In this document: positions 53,145-60,138 of the stretch, piece by piece | Numbering within the stretch: position 1 is the first letter of the stretch | Layout of the letters: the number at the start of each line of letters is the position of its first letter | Assembly: GCF_038443385.1 (NCBI RefSeq) | Contig: NZ_CP151726.1 | Coordinates: forward strand, 4,836,001-4,900,000 | DNA: 64,000 nt | Reading direction: 5' to 3' | Source of the DNA: Stieleria varia | GTDB taxonomy: Bacteria > Planctomycetota > Planctomycetia > Pirellulales > Pirellulaceae | The notes under the pieces: generated by a model | The model's input: only the letters and a program-made list of their open reading frames with translations | The model's database searches: none | What the model was told of the DNA's origin: nothing | Made by a program: the position numbers and the translations under genes

Positions 53145-53300
53145 ACGAAAGCTGTTGCCGACCTTTTTAATGTCGCATTTTTGGCCGAACTAAGACTGGG
53201 TGGATTTTTGATTCTTTTGAGGGGTGCGTGGCCGAATTGTTGCAAAGATTGGAGAGACCTCTCGACGACTCCGCTTCGCCCGACTCTCTGTGGATGGTCT
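53145..53300 (+). repeat. Empty-site copy of the 59-60 kb repeat block
   Basis: The stretch from TGTTGCCGACC through TGTCGCATTTTTGG, AAGACTGGGTGGATTTTTGA and GGAGAGACCTCTCGACG matches 59346-59377 joined to 59579-59622 and the later segment 60018-60085. It lacks the 201-bp inverted-repeat insert found there, which marks it as the uninterrupted form. Confidence 0.75.
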
Positions 53301-53458
53301 TGGTCGATGGCCTCTCGCAACGGGACATCGCCCGCCGGCTGGGCCACTCGCGAAACTCCGTCGTCAAGGCACTTCAGTCCGCCGTGCAGAGCGACGGCAT
53401 GCCCAGTCGCCGTCGTGGCGGCGACTGCCGATTTCGATTGAGGACAGACTGCAGCTGA
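53228..53458 (+). pseudogene. Helix-turn-helix fragment, transposase-like
   Basis: A 76-residue frame from GTG 53228 contains VDGLSQRDIARRLGHSRNSVVKAL, a helix-turn-helix of the kind at the N-terminus of IS21-type IstA transposases (GMSIREIARELGHSRNTVRKYL in general form). It ends after a short Arg-rich tail with no catalytic DDE region. The first 30 residues (AELLQRLERPLDDSASPDSL) recur at 60028-60110 in the second block. I read it as a broken mobile-element gene; a small regulator is possible. Confidence 0.5.
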
Positions 53459-53760: not shown

Positions 53761-54135
53761 ACTCGCACCTCCAACAACGCGATTTCGCAAGTTCAGAATC
53801 GCTGTGGAAAGATAGAGTCCCCGTTCAAACAGCATTTCACAGCCAACACCTGAACAGGTTGCCAGTGTTCATGGCGGCTATTGTCCGAGGTCTGAAAAAA
53901 CGTTTTCCTACCACGTTTCTCCCTTGGTGACGCGTCAGGATCGAAACCAGTGCAGAAAAAATCTCTTGGGCATCGCAGATCTGGATTGGAATAACCACAA
54001 AAATCGTTTCTTCAGGCCGACCAGCGGATACGATGGTGGTTGATTTTCAATCGATTCAGAATTGCGTGGCTCGTTGTTGAGCTTGATTGGCAAGACCTCA
54101 ATGACTCCACAGGTTCCTCTCTCGGAGTGCTTGAG
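53761..54135. other. Leader region of the first S74 gene
   Basis: No gene is visible. The final 100 bases (around GTGGCTCGTTGTTGAGCTTG and the GGAGTGCTTGAG just before the start) resemble the leaders of the two following paralogues, so the promoter was probably duplicated along with the gene. Confidence 0.55.
54124..54135 (+). promoter_or_regulatory. Conserved ribosome-binding leader of S74 gene 1
   Basis: GGAGTGCTTGAG directly precedes ATG 54136. The same leader stands before ATG 55761 (55749-55760), and GGAGTGCTTGCG before GTG 57277 (57265-57276). This shared leader fixes the three starts although longer frames are open upstream. Confidence 0.75.
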
Positions 54136-55503
54136 ATGAAAACGGCCGTTCTTTCACTGTTGCTTCTGTTCAGCATTTTCGCCGTCAAGGCCGATGGTCA
54201 AAGTCTTACGGGTGAGCGTGTCCTGTTAGATTCCAGCTTTCCTTACATTCGATTCACTCGCACAAGCGATCAATCTCACTACATCGACTGTCTGACTGAT
54301 CAATTGTCATTCCTGCTAAATGGTTCCTACAGGTTTCGCGTCTTCGAGACGGCTAAGCCAGATGCATTGGTGGTTGACAGTCAGGGAATCACCGTTGCCG
54401 GAAGCGGTACGGGGACACAAATCATCATCGATCAGGTACCGACATCCCAGCAGTTTGGGGTCACAAGCCTTTCCTCTCAGCAGGGGCTTCACAACGGCGG
54501 AATCGGTTTCAGGGTAGACAGTGCTTCGTATCCCTTTTATGTCTTTGATACAGCTAATAACGAATCACTTTCTGTTCGTGAGGAAGGAGTCGGCATCGGC
54601 ACGTACGACGCGACCGCTCCTTTGCATGTTTATTCAGATGGAAATCCATTTTCAGAAGCCAGCGTTCGCGTGGAGAATAACCTGGGTGGTTCTCCCGTTC
54701 AGCGAGAGATGTTCTCGTTGGTCAACAATGGCGGATCCAAATTCACCTTCACCGATACGAGCAATGGTAACAGATGGCTTTTTGCCACGCAGAACAACGG
54801 TTCCTTTGTTTGTAGTCGCAGTGGCACCAACGGAAACGAGTTTGTAATCACAGCCGATGGACGGGTGACGATGGGGCCTGGACCGGCGATCAACTTCAAC
54901 TTGGCCCCCAACGGAAACCTTCAAATCGCTGGTACGCTCACGCAATCCTCTGACAAGAATCTCAAGACGGCGTTCATGAGCGTTGATCCGTTGACGATAT
55001 TAGATCGCGTCGCATCGATGCCGGTGCAAAGCTGGCAGTTCAAGTTCGATGAACCCGAGTTACGTCACCTCGGCCCCACGGCGCAGGATTTCCATGCCGC
55101 GTTCGGTCTCGGCCAGGATGACAAGACGATCGCGCCGGTCGATGGGATCGGTGTGTCACTCGCTGCGATCCAGGCATTGAAAATCGAATGTGTTGAAAAG
55201 GACAATCGCATTGACGAGCTGGAAGTGGAGTTGTCCTCCTACAAACGAGACATGGATCAACAGAAGGAGCAATTGACGAAACAGGGAATCTTGCTATCCG
55301 AGCAGGACGAGCGTTTGTCCAATCAGAATGCTCAGTTGTCGCAGCAGAGAGAGTCAATTGCCGAGCAAAGAAAAACACTCGTGGAATTGATGTCTCGGTT
55401 GGACAACATCGAGAATGTTAGACGCCATGAGCGGAATGATTCCTCTCGCGTCGCCCCCAGCCAAAAGGAAAGTGCGACAAGTGATGATGCTGTCTCGTTT
55501 TGA
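54136..55503 (+). CDS. Secreted protein with C-terminal peptidase S74 domain, copy 1
   Basis: This 455-residue protein has a signal peptide (MKTAVLSLLLLFSIFAVKAD). A beta-rich N-terminal region (25-160) reads FPYIRFTRTSDQSHYID, LLNGSYRFRVFETAKPDALV and LHNGGIGFRVDSASYPFYVF. A middle segment (165-268) precedes the S74 intramolecular-chaperone domain (about 271-350): SSDKNLKTAFMSVDPLTILD, SWQFKFDEPELRHLGPTAQD and GVSLAAIQALKIE. The Ser-Asp of SSDKNLK is the expected self-cleavage site. A coiled coil rich in Gln/Glu (350-430) ends the chain, the longest of the three copies. Family knowledge: S74 domains trimerise phage tailspikes and some bacterial surface fibres, then cut themselves off. No membrane anchor is visible. 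Confidence 0.82.
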   Translation: MKTAVLSLLLLFSIFAVKADGQSLTGERVLLDSSFPYIRFTRTSDQSHYIDCLTDQLSFLLNGSYRFRVFETAKPDALVVDSQGITVAGSGTGTQIIIDQVPTSQQFGVTSLSSQQGLHNGGIGFRVDSASYPFYVFDTANNESLSVREEGVGIGTYDATAPLHVYSDGNPFSEASVRVENNLGGSPVQREMFSLVNNGGSKFTFTDTSNGNRWLFATQNNGSFVCSRSGTNGNEFVITADGRVTMGPGPAINFNLAPNGNLQIAGTLTQSSDKNLKTAFMSVDPLTILDRVASMPVQSWQFKFDEPELRHLGPTAQDFHAAFGLGQDDKTIAPVDGIGVSLAAIQALKIECVEKDNRIDELEVELSSYKRDMDQQKEQLTKQGILLSEQDERLSNQNAQLSQQRESIAEQRKTLVELMSRLDNIENVRRHERNDSSRVAPSQKESATSDDAVSF

Positions 55504-55760
55504 ACTGGACCTGCATCATGTCGTCATGTGAGCATTTGTTCCATCTGAAGCTCGAGGAAATGCTTGACAGAAGGTGATTTAGCCGCAGTTACTTCAATCG
55601 AAACAAAATCGCATTTCCCCACTGTAATCAATTGCCGTTGGACGTAGGGCGGATACGATGAATGAATGTTTGTCCCTTGAATTAAGTTTGAGTGGTTAGT
55701 TGCGGCGTTTTATTTTGGAAACTCGTCAATTCCACGGTTCCAATTATCGGAGTGCTTGAG

Positions 55761-57011
55761 ATGAAAACGGTTGCCCTTGCCTCACTGCTTCTGCTCAGCG
55801 TTCTAGCCGCCAATGGCAATGGACAGACTATCCAAGCGGAGGTTTTGTACCTGAAAGGCGCTTTGGCACATATAGAATTTGATCGAAATGGATCAAGTCA
55901 ATACATCGTCCCGCTAACTGATCAATTGTCCTTTCTGGTAGGCGGAAACTATAAATTTCGCGTTTTTGAAGATGCCAAAATAGACGGCTTGGTTGTCAAC
56001 AATCAGGGAATCTCCGTTGCCGGAGATGGAACTGGAAGGCAAGTTACGATCAATCAGATCGACACATCGCAGAAGTTTGGGATCACAAGCCTTTCTTCTG
56101 CGCACGGACTAAACGATGGCGGTATTGGCTTCCAGGTCGACAGCTCTCCTTTCCCCTTCTACGTCTTTGACACGGCGAAAAGCGAAACTTTGAGCGTTCG
56201 CCGTGAAGGCGTGGGGGTGGGGACCTACAACGCCAACGCTCCATTGCATGTTTATGCAGACGGATATCCGTTTTCGGAAGCCAGCGTTCGCGTGGAGAAT
56301 AACCTGTCTGGCTCTCCAGTTCAGAGAGAGATGTTTTCGTTGATCAACAACGGTGGCTCAAAGTTCACCTTCACCGACACGAGCAACGGAAACAGATGGC
56401 TCTTTGCCACCCAGGACAATGGGTCCTTTGTTTGTAGTCGAAGTGGCACCAACGGAAACGAGTTTGTGATCACAGCCGATGGACGGGTGACGATGGGGCC
56501 TGGACCCGCGATCAACTTCAACTTGGCCCCCAACGGAAACCTTCAAATCGCTGGTACGCTCACGCAATCCTCTGACAAGAATCTCAAGACGGCGTTCATG
56601 AGCGTTGATCCGTTGACGATATTAGATCGCGTCGCATCGATGCCGGTGCAAAGCTGGCAGTTCAAGTTCGATGAACCCGAGTTACGTCACCTCGGCCCCA
56701 CGGCGCAGGATTTCCACGCCGCGTTCGGTCTGGGGCAAGACGATAAGACGATCGCGCCGGTCGATGGGATCGGTGTGTCACTCGCTGCGATCCAGGCGTT
56801 GAATATAGAAGTCATCGAAAAGGACAAGCAAATTGAGGAACTTCAGACAGATCTCTCCATCTGCAAACGACAACTGGATCGCCAGGCATCCGAACTCCAG
56901 TTGCAATCCAAAGAATTGAATGAGCAGAAAGTGCTGTTGTCCGAACAGATGAAAACGCTGACGTCACTGATGAGTCGCCTGGAAAAGGTCGAAAGTACAA
57001 AACGCCAGTGA
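55761..57011 (+). CDS. Secreted protein with C-terminal peptidase S74 domain, copy 2
   Basis: This 416-residue paralogue of the previous gene has signal peptide MKTVALASLLLLSVLAANGN. Its N-terminal region differs most from copy 1 (ALAHIEFDRNGSSQYIVPLT, NYKFRVFEDAKIDGLV). From about residue 160 identity rises sharply, and the S74 segment SSDKNLKTAFMSVDPLTILD through the end of the domain is identical to copy 1 in protein, with only scattered silent differences in DNA. The coiled coil (about 350-410) is shorter. It starts 258 bases after the copy 1 stop, behind its own GGAGTGCTTGAG leader. Confidence 0.82.
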   Translation: MKTVALASLLLLSVLAANGNGQTIQAEVLYLKGALAHIEFDRNGSSQYIVPLTDQLSFLVGGNYKFRVFEDAKIDGLVVNNQGISVAGDGTGRQVTINQIDTSQKFGITSLSSAHGLNDGGIGFQVDSSPFPFYVFDTAKSETLSVRREGVGVGTYNANAPLHVYADGYPFSEASVRVENNLSGSPVQREMFSLINNGGSKFTFTDTSNGNRWLFATQDNGSFVCSRSGTNGNEFVITADGRVTMGPGPAINFNLAPNGNLQIAGTLTQSSDKNLKTAFMSVDPLTILDRVASMPVQSWQFKFDEPELRHLGPTAQDFHAAFGLGQDDKTIAPVDGIGVSLAAIQALNIEVIEKDKQIEELQTDLSICKRQLDRQASELQLQSKELNEQKVLLSEQMKTLTSLMSRLEKVESTKRQ

Positions 57012-57276
57012 CGACAACGAATCCGATCAAACTCAGTTCCGCGAGTGAAAACCAGGGAGTTTCGCGGTACCCTGCATTACGATGTCCCCCTCGACTCGAT
57101 CCACTGAGAAAATGCAGTCTTTTGAAATTGTGTTTTCCATTGATCGATAGCGAAGATTTGTTGAGAAGATACAGTCAAGTTTTATCGTCAATTTGTTCGA
57201 TTTTGAGTGGTTCGTTGTTGAGCTTACGCTGGGGCTAAGACGGCGACTCCACCGACCCTTCACTGGAGTGCTTGCG

Positions 57277-58470
57277 GTGAAAACGGCAACCCTTTCATTT
57301 CTGCTTCTGTTCTGCGTTCTGGCCGCAAATGGTAGCGGTCAAGTCATCAACGGGGAAAAATTGATTTTGGAGTCAACCTTTCCGTATATACATTTCATTC
57401 GCACAGGCGAAACAACTCACTTCATCGACTCCCTGAGTAATCAATTATCATACTACTTAGATGGTGAGTACAGATTTCGCGTTTATGACAATGCTAAAAT
57501 TGACGCCCTGGTTGTCGACAGCCAGGGGATTTCCGTTGCCGGAAATGGGCTTGGAATGCAGATAGCCATCCACCAGGTCCCCACGGGCCAGGAATTTGGG
57601 ATCACGAGTCTTTCCTCTGCAAACGGGCTGCACAATGGTGGAATCGGCTTTCAAGTCGACAGCGCACTTTTTCCGTTTTTTGTCTTCGACACGGCCAATG
57701 AAGAAGCGTTGAGCGTCGGTGGTGAGGGCGTGGGTGTGGGGACATACAATGCAAACGCTCCCCTGCATGTCTATACAAATGGGTTCCCGTTTTCAGAAGC
57801 CAGAGTTCGCGTGGAGAACGACCTGGGGGGCCCTCCGGTTCAGCGAGAGATGTTCTCGTTGGTCAACAATGGCGGTTCGAAATTCACCTTCACCGACACA
57901 AACAGTGGTTATCGATGGCTCTTTGCCACGCAGAACAACGGTTCCTTTGTTTGTAGTCGCAGTGGCACCAACGGAAACGAGTTTGTAATCACAGCCGATG
58001 GACGGGTGACGATGGGGCCTGGACCGGCGATCAACTTCAATTTGGCCCCCAACGGAAACCTTCAAATCGCTGGTACGCTCACGCAATCCTCTGACAAGAA
58101 TCTCAAGACGGCGTTCGCAAGCGTCGATCCGATGGAGGTCCTGGATCAAGTGGCATCAATGCCGATACAGAGCTGGCAGTTCAAGTTCGATGAACCCGAG
58201 TTACGTCACCTCGGCCCCACGGCGCAGGATTTCCACGCCGCGTTCGGTCTGGGGCAAGACGATAAGACGATCGCGCCGGTCGATGGGATCGGTGTGTCAC
58301 TCGCTGCGATCCAGGCGTTGAACATCGAAGGCATCGAAAAGGACAAACGGATCAACGAACTCAAGACCGATCTGGCCATGTGCAAGCGACAATTGGCACA
58401 GCAGCAAGATCAGTTGAAGAAGTTGCTGTCTCGGCTGGATAACATCGAGAACATGCAACGCAAGAAATAG
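57277..58470 (+). CDS. Secreted protein with C-terminal peptidase S74 domain, copy 3
   Basis: This 397-residue third paralogue starts at GTG 57277, aligned with the ATG of the other two. The signal peptide is VKTATLSFLLLFCVLAANGS, then FPYIHFIRTGETTHFIDSLS, closer to copy 1 than copy 2. Its S74 domain differs at one patch (TAFASVDPMEVLDQVASMPI), then is identical onward. Coiled coil is the shortest (about 345-395). The stop is followed after 13 bases by the next gene, so the two are probably one transcript. Confidence 0.82.
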   Translation: MKTATLSFLLLFCVLAANGSGQVINGEKLILESTFPYIHFIRTGETTHFIDSLSNQLSYYLDGEYRFRVYDNAKIDALVVDSQGISVAGNGLGMQIAIHQVPTGQEFGITSLSSANGLHNGGIGFQVDSALFPFFVFDTANEEALSVGGEGVGVGTYNANAPLHVYTNGFPFSEARVRVENDLGGPPVQREMFSLVNNGGSKFTFTDTNSGYRWLFATQNNGSFVCSRSGTNGNEFVITADGRVTMGPGPAINFNLAPNGNLQIAGTLTQSSDKNLKTAFASVDPMEVLDQVASMPIQSWQFKFDEPELRHLGPTAQDFHAAFGLGQDDKTIAPVDGIGVSLAAIQALNIEGIEKDKRINELKTDLAMCKRQLAQQQDQLKKLLSRLDNIENMQRKK

Positions 58471-58483
58471 AGGGAAGCTTGAT

Positions 58484-59263
58484 ATGATGAACGTTCAATT
58501 GATGAGCACCGCCGTTTTGGCGTTGCTTCTGTTCGGAGCAGTTCCTCCGATTGCAGCGCAAGATCCGGATCAGCGGCGTGAGGTGCCTAATTCTACTGAG
58601 GAAACGCCGATCAGAGCGGCGGAACCGCGTGAGTTTCAAATGTCGGGGCAATCAGGAACACGCGAGTCTTTCGGGCATTTGGCTGAATTTCCCGGGATGC
58701 TTGTCCACAACGACGTCTTTTCGCTGCTGCAATACAAACCTATTCGCAACGCAATTGAAGTCACAGACGAGCAGGCAACCGAGTTGGCCAAAGCTCAGAT
58801 AGAACAAATCAAACTTCGACAGCAGACCTTGCGTGATCTCCCTCGTCCGGTCGGGCCACTGCAAGGGGACGCGGAGAGTGCAAAACGCCGCGCGGACGCT
58901 TTCGCGGAACTCGATCGCAAAACGCAGGATTTGTACCGTCAGATACTATTGCCGAAACAGGTCGAGCGTCTGACGGAAATTGCCTTTGAACTGCGAATCC
59001 AATCGATGGGTATCGTCGCGTTTCTCAAAGATCCGCAAATGGTCGCGGAACTTGAGATCTCGGACGAACAGCAAGCCCGACTGGATCGGCAAGCCATTGA
59101 GTCATCGCAAGATCTTGACGCGAAGGTCGGCGAGTTGAAACGTCAAGTTCGCCGGGACATCATGGCGGTGCTGGATGACAACCAGCGAGCCCAATTGAAA
59201 AGCATGCTCGGTCAGGAATTCGACTGGAGTCGTGCCAGCGCAGCCGCTCCCGAAGGCGAATGA
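58484..59263 (+). CDS. Secreted helical protein of unknown function
   Basis: This 259-residue protein has a signal peptide (MMNVQLMSTAVLALLLFGAV, cleavage near PIAAQ). A disordered Glu/Arg/Pro-rich stretch runs to about 60, followed by two long helical halves with LLQYKPIRNAIEVTDEQATE, LAKAQIEQIKLRQQTL and FLKDPQMVAELEISDEQQAR. The repeated motif V/L-E-h-T/S-D-E-Q-x-x-x-L is common in planctomycete secreted proteins, where it resembles CpxP/Spy-like helical hairpins. It begins with GGGAAG nine bases upstream, 13 bases after the S74 copy 3 stop. A chaperone or scaffold partner for the S74 proteins is inferred from linkage only. Confidence 0.7.
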   Translation: MMNVQLMSTAVLALLLFGAVPPIAAQDPDQRREVPNSTEETPIRAAEPREFQMSGQSGTRESFGHLAEFPGMLVHNDVFSLLQYKPIRNAIEVTDEQATELAKAQIEQIKLRQQTLRDLPRPVGPLQGDAESAKRRADAFAELDRKTQDLYRQILLPKQVERLTEIAFELRIQSMGIVAFLKDPQMVAELEISDEQQARLDRQAIESSQDLDAKVGELKRQVRRDIMAVLDDNQRAQLKSMLGQEFDWSRASAAAPEGE

Positions 59264-59295
59264 AATGACGACGGACTTTCGTCCTTTTTTTACTA

Positions 59296-59622
59296 CGGAG
59301 AGCTTCGCTGGGGTCAGGCCTTGCATTGGGTTTTCGACGGTGACAGATGTTACCGGCCTTTTTCATGTCGCATTTTTGGACACTTCTCGCTGATCGCCGC
59401 CACTGGTTCCCAGGCTCCTGCCTGGGAACCCAATGATTGGCAGGCTCCTGCATGCCGATCTGCTGACAATTTCCAGACCACGCTGATTTCCGCGAGGCAG
59501 AGCCTCCGTGGCAGTGCGTTCCCAGGCGTGAGACCGGGAACGAGCGTTCTGCGGGGTGGCGATCAGCGAGAAGTGTCCATTTTTGGCAGAATTGAGACTG
59601 GGTTGATTTTTTATTCTCTTGA
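59296..59622. repeat. 327-bp tandem block, copy 1
   Basis: It begins CGGAGAGCTTCGCTGGGGTC and ends ATTTTTTATTCTCTTGA. The same block recurs at 59691-60017 with no difference found by eye. Between them, 59623-59690 repeats only the first 68 bases. The block contains the MITE at 59378-59578. Confidence 0.9.
59378..59578. mobile_element. 201-bp MITE, copy 1
   Basis: The terminal inverted repeats are 21 bp and perfect: GGACACTTCTCGCTGATCGC plus C on the left and its complement at 59558-59578. ATTTTT flanks both sides (59372-59377 and 59579-59584), consistent with a target-site duplication. The interior has TTCCCAGGCTCCTGCCTGGG and GTTCCCAGGCGTGAGACCGG stem sequences but no gene. The homologous sequence at 53177-53184 has the target uninterrupted. 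Confidence 0.8.
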
Positions 59623-59690
59623 CGGAGAGCTTCGCTGGGGTCAGGCCTTGCATTGGGTTTTCGACGGTGACAGATGTTACCGGCCTTTTT
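59623..59690. repeat. Partial 68-base unit of the tandem block
   Basis: This repeats the first 68 bases of the block (CGGAGAGCTTCGCTGGGGTC to TACCGGCCTTTTT) and stops exactly where the next full copy begins, giving a one, one-fifth, one arrangement. Confidence 0.85.
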
Positions 59691-60017
59691 CGGAGAGCTT
59701 CGCTGGGGTCAGGCCTTGCATTGGGTTTTCGACGGTGACAGATGTTACCGGCCTTTTTCATGTCGCATTTTTGGACACTTCTCGCTGATCGCCGCCACTG
59801 GTTCCCAGGCTCCTGCCTGGGAACCCAATGATTGGCAGGCTCCTGCATGCCGATCTGCTGACAATTTCCAGACCACGCTGATTTCCGCGAGGCAGAGCCT
59901 CCGTGGCAGTGCGTTCCCAGGCGTGAGACCGGGAACGAGCGTTCTGCGGGGTGGCGATCAGCGAGAAGTGTCCATTTTTGGCAGAATTGAGACTGGGTTG
60001 ATTTTTTATTCTCTTGA
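59691..60017. repeat. 327-bp tandem block, copy 2
   Basis: Second copy of the block at an offset of 395 bases from the first, containing the second MITE. After it the sequence continues into GGCGTGCGTAGCCGAATTGT, homologous to the area after the empty site at 53221. Confidence 0.9.
59773..59973. mobile_element. 201-bp MITE, copy 2
   Basis: Same element as at 59378-59578, carried along by the block duplication. Its flanks are the same ATTTTT repeats, so this is not an independent insertion. Confidence 0.8.
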
Positions 60018-60138
60018 GGCGTGCGTAGCCGAATTGTTGCGAAAATTGGAGAGACCTCTCGACGCTTCTTCGTCTCCCGATTCTCTCAGGATGGCCTTGG
60101 CCGAATTGAGATCGGATGGTTTCATTGACCAGAAGTGA
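60018..60138 (+). pseudogene. Fragment related to the helix-turn-helix frame at 53228
   Basis: The frame reads ACVAELLRKLERPLDASSSP, then DSLRMALAEL, matching residues 1-30 of the frame at 53228-53458, then departs before the helix-turn-helix and stops at 60138. It is the truncated end of the same element. Confidence 0.5.

Follow-up and report, generated by a model that had tools for sequence, protein, structure and literature searches.

Tandem S74 fibre genes of Stieleria varia: evidence for gene conversion of a stalk and chaperone core between old duplicates

The window analysed here is a stretch of 64,000 nt from the planctomycete Stieleria varia (contig NZ_CP151726.1, positions 4,836,001 to 4,900,000; positions below are those of the window). 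It carries on the + strand a trio of adjacent genes, each coding for a protein with an S74 domain. We think it likely that the products of the trio are secreted fibre proteins similar to the mosaic adhesive trimers (MATs) of Bdellovibrio bacteriovorus, i.e., cell-encoded relatives of phage fibres, and that the three genes are old duplicates in which gene conversion has homogenised the distal stalk and the S74 core, with the base and the tail kept distinct under purifying selection. Copy 1 (54136..55503, 455 aa) has a signal-like N-terminus, a beta-rich base or shaft, the S74 domain and the longest coiled-coil tail of the three. Copy 2 (55761..57011) codes for 416 aa, and copy 3 (57277..58470), which has a GTG start and the shortest tail, for 397 aa. 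The copies are separated by spacers of 257 and 265 bp. A unit of ~95 nt, consisting of the upstream leader and the signal-peptide start, is common to the trio (54106..54200 for copy 1, 55731-55825 and 57247-57341 for the others); copies 2 and 3 are 73% and 64% identical to copy 1 in this unit. The tandem layout, coordinates, shared leader and quoted strings given in an earlier note, made from the sequence by a model, were all present in an exact + strand scan of the window, and its secreted layout agrees with the signal-like N-termini seen by inspection in all three copies.

Patchwork divergence of the three copies

Synonymous differences were followed along a codon alignment, a check which the earlier note had proposed, and divergence was found to be non-uniform along the genes. 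In the mature N-terminal part (residues 23-160), the copies were 60-65% identical, with synonymous divergence (dS) of 1.4-3.7 and nonsynonymous divergence (dN) of 0.26-0.33 in every pair; the copies are therefore old. Further downstream lies a near-identical block, codons 213-347 of copy 1 (54772..55176), with counterparts at 56394..56798 in copy 2 and 57913..58317 in copy 3. This block begins ~60 codons 5' of the S74 domain, comprises ~60 residues before the expected cleavage site plus the S74 core, and ends where the coiled-coil tail begins. The tails diverge between copies (dS 1.3-1.9). Among codons for identical residues, synonymous differences amounted to 45-46% outside codons 221-345 vs 9-10% inside, a drop that is clear for each of the three pairs (Fisher's test, p from 4e-12 to 6e-11). 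Codons 213-280 and 301-347 had dS of 0-0.25 and dN of about 0.

Within the block, the identities change partners. For example, ATGAGCGTTGATCCGTTGAC is common to copies 1 and 2 (at 54976 and 56598), TTCCACGCCGCGTTCGGTCT to copies 2 and 3 (at 56712 and 58231), with TTCCATGCC at 55090 in copy 1, and CAGAACAACGGTTCC to copies 1 and 3 (at 54790 and 57931), with CAGGACAATGGGTCC at 56412 in copy 2. In codons 281-300, copies 1 and 2 are identical, and copy 3 forms an apparently unconverted island (58117..58176) with 70% nucleotide identity to both of them and a dS of 1.9, a value based on 13 synonymous sites only. In codons 301-345, copies 2 and 3 showed 0/45 synonymous differences and copy 1 showed 6/45. 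A run of 19 consecutive polymorphic sites at which copies 1 and 2 agree (codons 255-298) was reached in 0/5000 shuffles. The runs shared by copies 1 and 3 and by copies 2 and 3, with 7 sites each, were marginal alone (186/5000 and 220/5000 shuffles), and at synonymous sites only the three run tests gave 25, 340 and 67/5000. Since synonymous codons are near-identical inside the block and saturated in both flanks, gene conversion among the copies, with at least two tracts, is well supported by the sequence comparison, as the earlier note had suggested. Its description of mosaic C-termini was right with regard to the patchwork block, which is real; the C-termini proper, i.e., the tails, are divergent again, and the block starts before S74.

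The same pattern might be explained by strong constraint that keeps the block similar with no gene conversion, and the S74 core is generally conserved as a protein sequence. This explanation appears extremely improbable, because the synonymous codons are near-identical too, copy 1 departs from an agreement of copies 2 and 3 in codons 301-345, and the 20-codon island is back at a dS of 1.9 (13 synonymous sites). Another model, that of the earlier note, combines a common assembly domain with receptor-binding heads at the N-terminus, the heads being diversified by selection. It is true that the S74 block is uniform and that identity falls to 58-64% in the N-terminal parts (codons 1-160), but dN/dS in residues 23-160 was 0.18, 0.07 and 0.18, with nothing above 1; the ratio is rough because dS is near saturation, and such low values fit old duplicates under purifying selection. 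It has also been reported that in Bdellovibrio MATs the N-terminus is the constant, cell-proximal base and the variable C-terminal tip lies beside S74 (PMC10769870; here and below, published accounts are used in excerpt). The uniform block of the trio thus takes in what is the expected distal tip, and we consider diversifying heads unlikely. By analogy with MATs, i.e., if the trio has the same orientation, its tip would be shared and its base varied.

S74 core, expected cleavage and coiled-coil tails

All three copies matched PF13884 (S74) with E-values of 1.2e-9 to 5.1e-9 (36.7-38.7 bits vs a curated cut-off of 22). The SDxxxK dyad described for this domain (PMC3742443, PMC10769870) is represented in copy 1 by SDKNLK (54949..54966), with Ser272 and Lys277 as the catalytic pair, in copy 2 by Ser271 and Lys276 (56571..56588) and in copy 3 by Ser272 and Lys277 (58090..58107). 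Both dyad residues were invariant in two alignments (14/14 and 26/26 aligned sequences). Known S74 proteins are cut just N-terminal of the catalytic Ser; for example, the mature tip of Bd3182 ends at A781, and Ser782 is catalytic (PMC10769870). By analogy, the expected cut lies between Ser270 and Ser271 in copy 2 and between Ser271 and Ser272 in the other two copies, and not between Ser and Asp, where the earlier note had located it.

From residue 201 on, each block of ten residues in an AlphaFold2 (AF2) monomer model had pLDDT of 83-94, and the model adopted the intramolecular chaperone auto-processing (ICA) fold with a C-terminal coiled coil (7dc3 with probability 1.00, TM(target) 0.60-0.62, E 2.6e-3). 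Strands were seen in the model, those of the N-terminal part at low confidence. The best PDB folds were the MyRF ICA (probability 1.00), followed by the T5 tail fibre with its chaperone (0.63), Bd1334 (0.44) and Bd3182 (0.72), and a profile search of PDB found Bd2133 (5.7e-7, stalk region) and MyRF (1.7e-5). The S74 fold predicted in the earlier note is therefore borne out by the PF13884 match, the confident part of the model and MyRF ICA as the best PDB fold. No catalytic sugar-cleaving domain was recognised in the trio by Pfam scan.

Tail lengths between two shared anchors were 50, 36 and 15 residues in copies 1, 2 and 3, and the differences of 14, 21 and 35 residues, all multiples of seven, correspond to exactly 2, 3 and 5 heptads. 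Heptad a/d positions were 64-67% hydrophobic vs 18-22% elsewhere, with the same best frame in the trio (a second frame ties in copy 2). Such whole-heptad differences could disfavour mixed trimers and keep the trimers homotypic despite the shared chaperone core.

We propose that the fibre proteins would be exported by Sec, would trimerise, driven by the coiled-coil tail and by the intramolecular chaperone of the S74 domain, and would then cleave themselves before Ser272/271/272 to give a mature trimeric beta fibre of ~250 residues; the parts needed for these steps are present in the sequence. To judge from relatives, this fibre might be exported to or retained at the cell surface and bind a surface or a polysaccharide. 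Conversion, in at least two tracts, would make the distal beta stalk and the S74 core uniform, and base and tail would stay distinct. The trio offers a natural test of how self-cleaving trimeric fibres with a shared chaperone avoid mixing.

Relatives, genomic setting and secretion genes

A first, narrower alignment of the trio found no relatives in either collection. With a broader alignment, at least 519 relatives were confirmed in genome contigs, 80 of which were taken further, and 26 were found in viral contigs. We obtained 110 loci with an S74 open reading frame (ORF), 84 non-viral and 26 viral. Plasmid records gave 16 matches with coverage up to 81%, and phage records 23 matches, for which coverage was at most 27%, at the S74 end only, in the 20 of 23 listed. 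The stalk and core align with cellular proteins, at 81% coverage and 33% identity in a roseobacter plasmid. In an S74 tree of 133 rows and 106 columns (a short alignment with midpoint root and many open forks), the trio and a Planctomycetaceae protein were sisters (98/82) in a 46-row group that has no viral rows. A crude hydrophobicity rule recognised signal peptides in 76 of 97 ORFs of relatives, and 14 of the other 21 were cut by the contig end. The neighbours of planctomycete relatives looked non-phage by eye in partial ORF lists.

Two or more S74 ORFs occurred within the stretch in 14 of the 110 loci, all non-viral (on opposite strands in L091). The conversion test was applied to 24 pairs from 10 of these 14 loci, 15 pairs being hand-chosen and nine added. 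Stalk and core were depleted of synonymous differences, as in the trio, at a level passing Bonferroni correction in two pairs (L197 and L110); L095 lay at the Bonferroni limit (p 0.0021), and five of the 24 pairs were nominally significant. The conversion pattern recurs among relatives but is not general, and conversion as a rule for other S74 arrays was rejected. Several relatives had other architectures. By eye, L197:11595-12800, L197:12842-14038 and L218:6834-8024 kept the stalk, with S74 replaced by another C-terminal region. Similarly, Chloroflexota S74 proteins (L126, L148) have a hydrophobic segment and a basic tail after the coiled coil, and because of this arrangement self-cleavage might free the fibre from a membrane anchor. 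Distant planctomycete S74 proteins (L025/L078, L026/L084, L032/L083 and L037) have, before the S74 domain, GPTGPAG repeats, which we take to be collagen-like, or GGG.N.A repeats, presumably YadA-head-like.

In the S. varia genome itself (9.72 Mb, one contig), the trio accounts for all S74 matches. PF13884 was present in 4 of 60 genomes, and matches to a profile of the trio were found in 12 of 392 genomes across the phylum and in 6 of 149 in the family, S. varia being counted each time; among those in the family, G518 was strong (2e-80) and four were weak (1.8e-5 to 3.7e-4). In seven stretches of 3.7-19.9 kb around the RND gene of congeners (L070-L076), no tblastn match was found to the trio, the helical gene described below or the left-flank genes. 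The cluster had a GC content of 51.4% vs 56.1% for the window, a value as low being found in only 3 of 236 overlapping segments of the size of the cluster, those over the cluster included. The cluster is flanked on both sides by a dispersed repeat, for which the genome has 54 partial matches, the repeat itself counted; its left copy (53176..53307, + strand) is 84% identical to the right one (59973..60104, + strand), 6.8 kb apart. Part of the same dispersed repeat is an identical 300-nt direct repeat at 59295-59990, which has 395-nt spacing and contains three copies of a 70-nt unit. The distribution of the cluster may reflect either gain through transfer or loss in congeners. Among ten flanking ORFs scanned with Pfam, eight belonged to non-phage families (sulfatase, FtsK, TruB, NUDIX, MIP, AcrB-type RND transporter, HlyD and DHOR) and two had no match; the non-phage setting claimed in the earlier note is thus supported, no phage family being found among the ten.

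These data bear on the possibility that the trio are tail fibres of a prophage remnant or of a phage-like particle, including extracellular contractile injection systems (eCIS). PHROG tail-fibre profiles match the trio, its fold is common to many viral proteins, and S74 genes can sit in eCIS operons (PMC8213781). Against this, the flanks are largely non-phage by Pfam scan, a signal-like N-terminus is present in each copy, the listed phage matches reach the S74 end only, and the neighbourhoods of planctomycete relatives look non-phage by eye. A phage or eCIS origin, disfavoured by the flanks, the low phage coverage among the matches listed and the tree group without viral rows, is in our opinion very unlikely. 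The interpretation as cell-encoded MAT-like fibres has its own difficulties. The 46-row tree group is weakly supported (95/74), PF13884 was found in 0 of 13 congeners, so the trio is not a core function, and no export system was linked to the trio (a GspD search of the S. varia genome gave 27 matches, all below the curated cut-off). In the AF2 model, which is a monomer, base residues 17-142 had pLDDT <50; all PDB fold matches had E >0.001, the best being the value given above; and viral predicted structures matched in larger number and more strongly (137 at E <= 0.001), as is expected for the S74 fold. Whole-heptad differences, counted as two independent ones, would arise by chance about once in 49.

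The gene 13 bp 3' of copy 3 (58484..59263, + strand, 259 aa) encodes a secreted helical protein of a planctomycete family. Copies 1 and 2 may have transcription starts of their own, and only copy 3 and the helical gene look like an operon. A scan for promoters gave 5 sites vs 3.3 expected, which is close to chance. A terminator-like site lies 3' of the helical gene (59267-59283), and the same scan recognised no such site on the + strand in either inter-copy spacer, so the genes may also be read as a single long transcript. Relatives of the helical gene, at 20-34% identity, were found in 30 of the 60 genomes, S. varia counted. Besides S. varia, both families were present only in G022 and G033, on different contigs of fragmented assemblies where distant linkage is possible, and the helical gene had no tblastn match in the 84 non-viral S74 loci. 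The separate contigs and the 0/84 loci give no support to it as a conserved S74 partner, and no recurring link was seen for the operon partner of the earlier note. The protein resembles the LTXXQ family (Spy/CpxP) weakly, in being secreted and all-helical by prediction, and differs in falling below every curated threshold and in having ~250 residues and a conserved pattern of its own. PF07813 was not matched in the Pfam scan of the window protein; among three relatives scanned, the best reached 23.9 bits vs a cut-off of 24.3, and another had E 0.013. The family profile matched four Spy sequences weakly (E 0.057-0.13), with a designed binder scoring higher (0.0015), and a single-sequence model had a mean pLDDT of 50. 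A periplasmic chaperone role would be a guess.

A secreted domain of 130 residues was first met upstream of roseobacter fibres and extended by iterated profile search. It occurred in 29 of the 84 non-viral loci, as a separate ORF of at most 320 aa in 11 (e.g., L200:6959-7369, L197:10090-10527, L091:4435-5115 and L218:6311-6814) and fused into a longer ORF, at its N-terminal end, in 18 (L092, L094, L096, L098-L101, L103, L105, L106, L109, L115, L119, L123, L146, L165, L170 and L199). The two forms were never found in one locus; neither was present in the remaining 55 non-viral loci or in any of the 26 viral ones. Another separate copy was found in a genome from the family of S. varia, upstream of a fibre that matches the profile only as far as a point before S74. 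The domain is absent from the window and had no match in the S. varia genome in a search without positive control; the examples scanned had no match of note in Pfam, NCBIfam, PHROGs or PDB. As a possible equivalent, it may correspond to the conserved beta-rich domain of ~130 aa which, according to the MAT paper, directly follows the signal peptide.

In PLSDB, the separate domain gene was found on 8 plasmids, including NZ_CP034347 and NZ_CP019317, and GspG proteins with at least 70% identity to the linked one were found on exactly the same 8, although one of them had supplied the GspG query, and the plasmids may share ancestry. Seven of the eight fibre-bearing roseobacter-type plasmids were among these; the remaining one is recorded as a second plasmid of the same species. 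In five of the eight fibre-bearing plasmids, the best fibre match ended at residue 304-339 of 405, so these fibres may lack S74. The domain, GspG and fibre genes were adjacent on some plasmids and tens of kilobases apart on others, which indicates co-residence and not always linkage. Fibres adjoin gsp operons on two annotated plasmids; on a third, Tropicibacter NZ_CP124619, no fibre-adjoining gsp operon was seen. Among nine roseobacter loci, six had genes for gsp components or a prepilin peptidase in the sequence available (L095 the peptidase alone) and three had none. Because the domain co-resides with one GspG subfamily on roseobacter plasmids, these data suggest a dedicated type II export route for roseobacter fibres. 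The excerpted account of roseobacter biofilm plasmids (PMC10090131) does not mention these fibres.

A broader scheme can be offered tentatively, and it is rather doubtful as a whole. The trio would be a MAT set of reversed polarity, with one adhesive tip and chaperone homogenised by conversion on three bases and kept homotypic by whole-heptad tails. Some cell-encoded S74 fibres would form an export-and-anchor system with a detachable 130-residue N-terminal domain, separate or fused, which would travel with dedicated type II secretion in roseobacters and would have been lost or replaced here, with the Spy-like helical protein beside copy 3. The fused-or-separate domain and its co-residence with type II genes make MAT export and base anchoring testable in roseobacter.

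Comparison with known systems

Bacterial plasmids and chromosomes carry proteins annotated as "tail fiber domain-containing", those in the records listed here being examples, and usually no function is given for them. In open-licence literature, at the level of titles and abstract openings, we found nothing on point for S74 and planctomycetes, tail fibres and type II secretion, planctomycete tail fibers or adhesins, or S74 and gene conversion. The self-cleaving cellular fibre set appeared undescribed to the earlier note, but the MAT superfamily of the predatory bacterium Bdellovibrio bacteriovorus was characterised in 2024 by Caulton et al. (PMC10769870), and the relatives counted above show that such loci are common in genome contigs.

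The Ser-Lys dyad, five residues apart, and the C-terminal coiled coil are shared with the S74/ICA domains of endosialidases, T5 pb1 and MYRF (PMC3742443, PMC8326128), and trimer-dependent cleavage would be expected in the trio likewise; the trio differs in that nothing marks it as a virion protein or as a transcription factor. MATs are cell-encoded trimeric beta fibres with signal peptides, several per genome and with gene-to-gene mosaicism, and the trio, whose trimeric state is predicted, resembles them in these features and matches Bd2133, Bd3182 and Bd1334 by sequence and fold. In the excerpted account, 13 of 21 MATs end in an S74 domain with SDxxxK, as the trio does. In contrast to MATs, which are typically ~1,000 aa long, the trio proteins have 397-455 aa and lack the 130-residue domain found in part of the relatives' loci, and their host, we infer, does not belong to the known predators. 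The mosaic of MATs has a constant N-terminus and a variable C-terminal tip, and in the trio this is reversed. The kind of system, cell-encoded and presumably self-cleaving trimeric fibres, is already known, and what is distinctive here is the reversed polarity of the mosaic.

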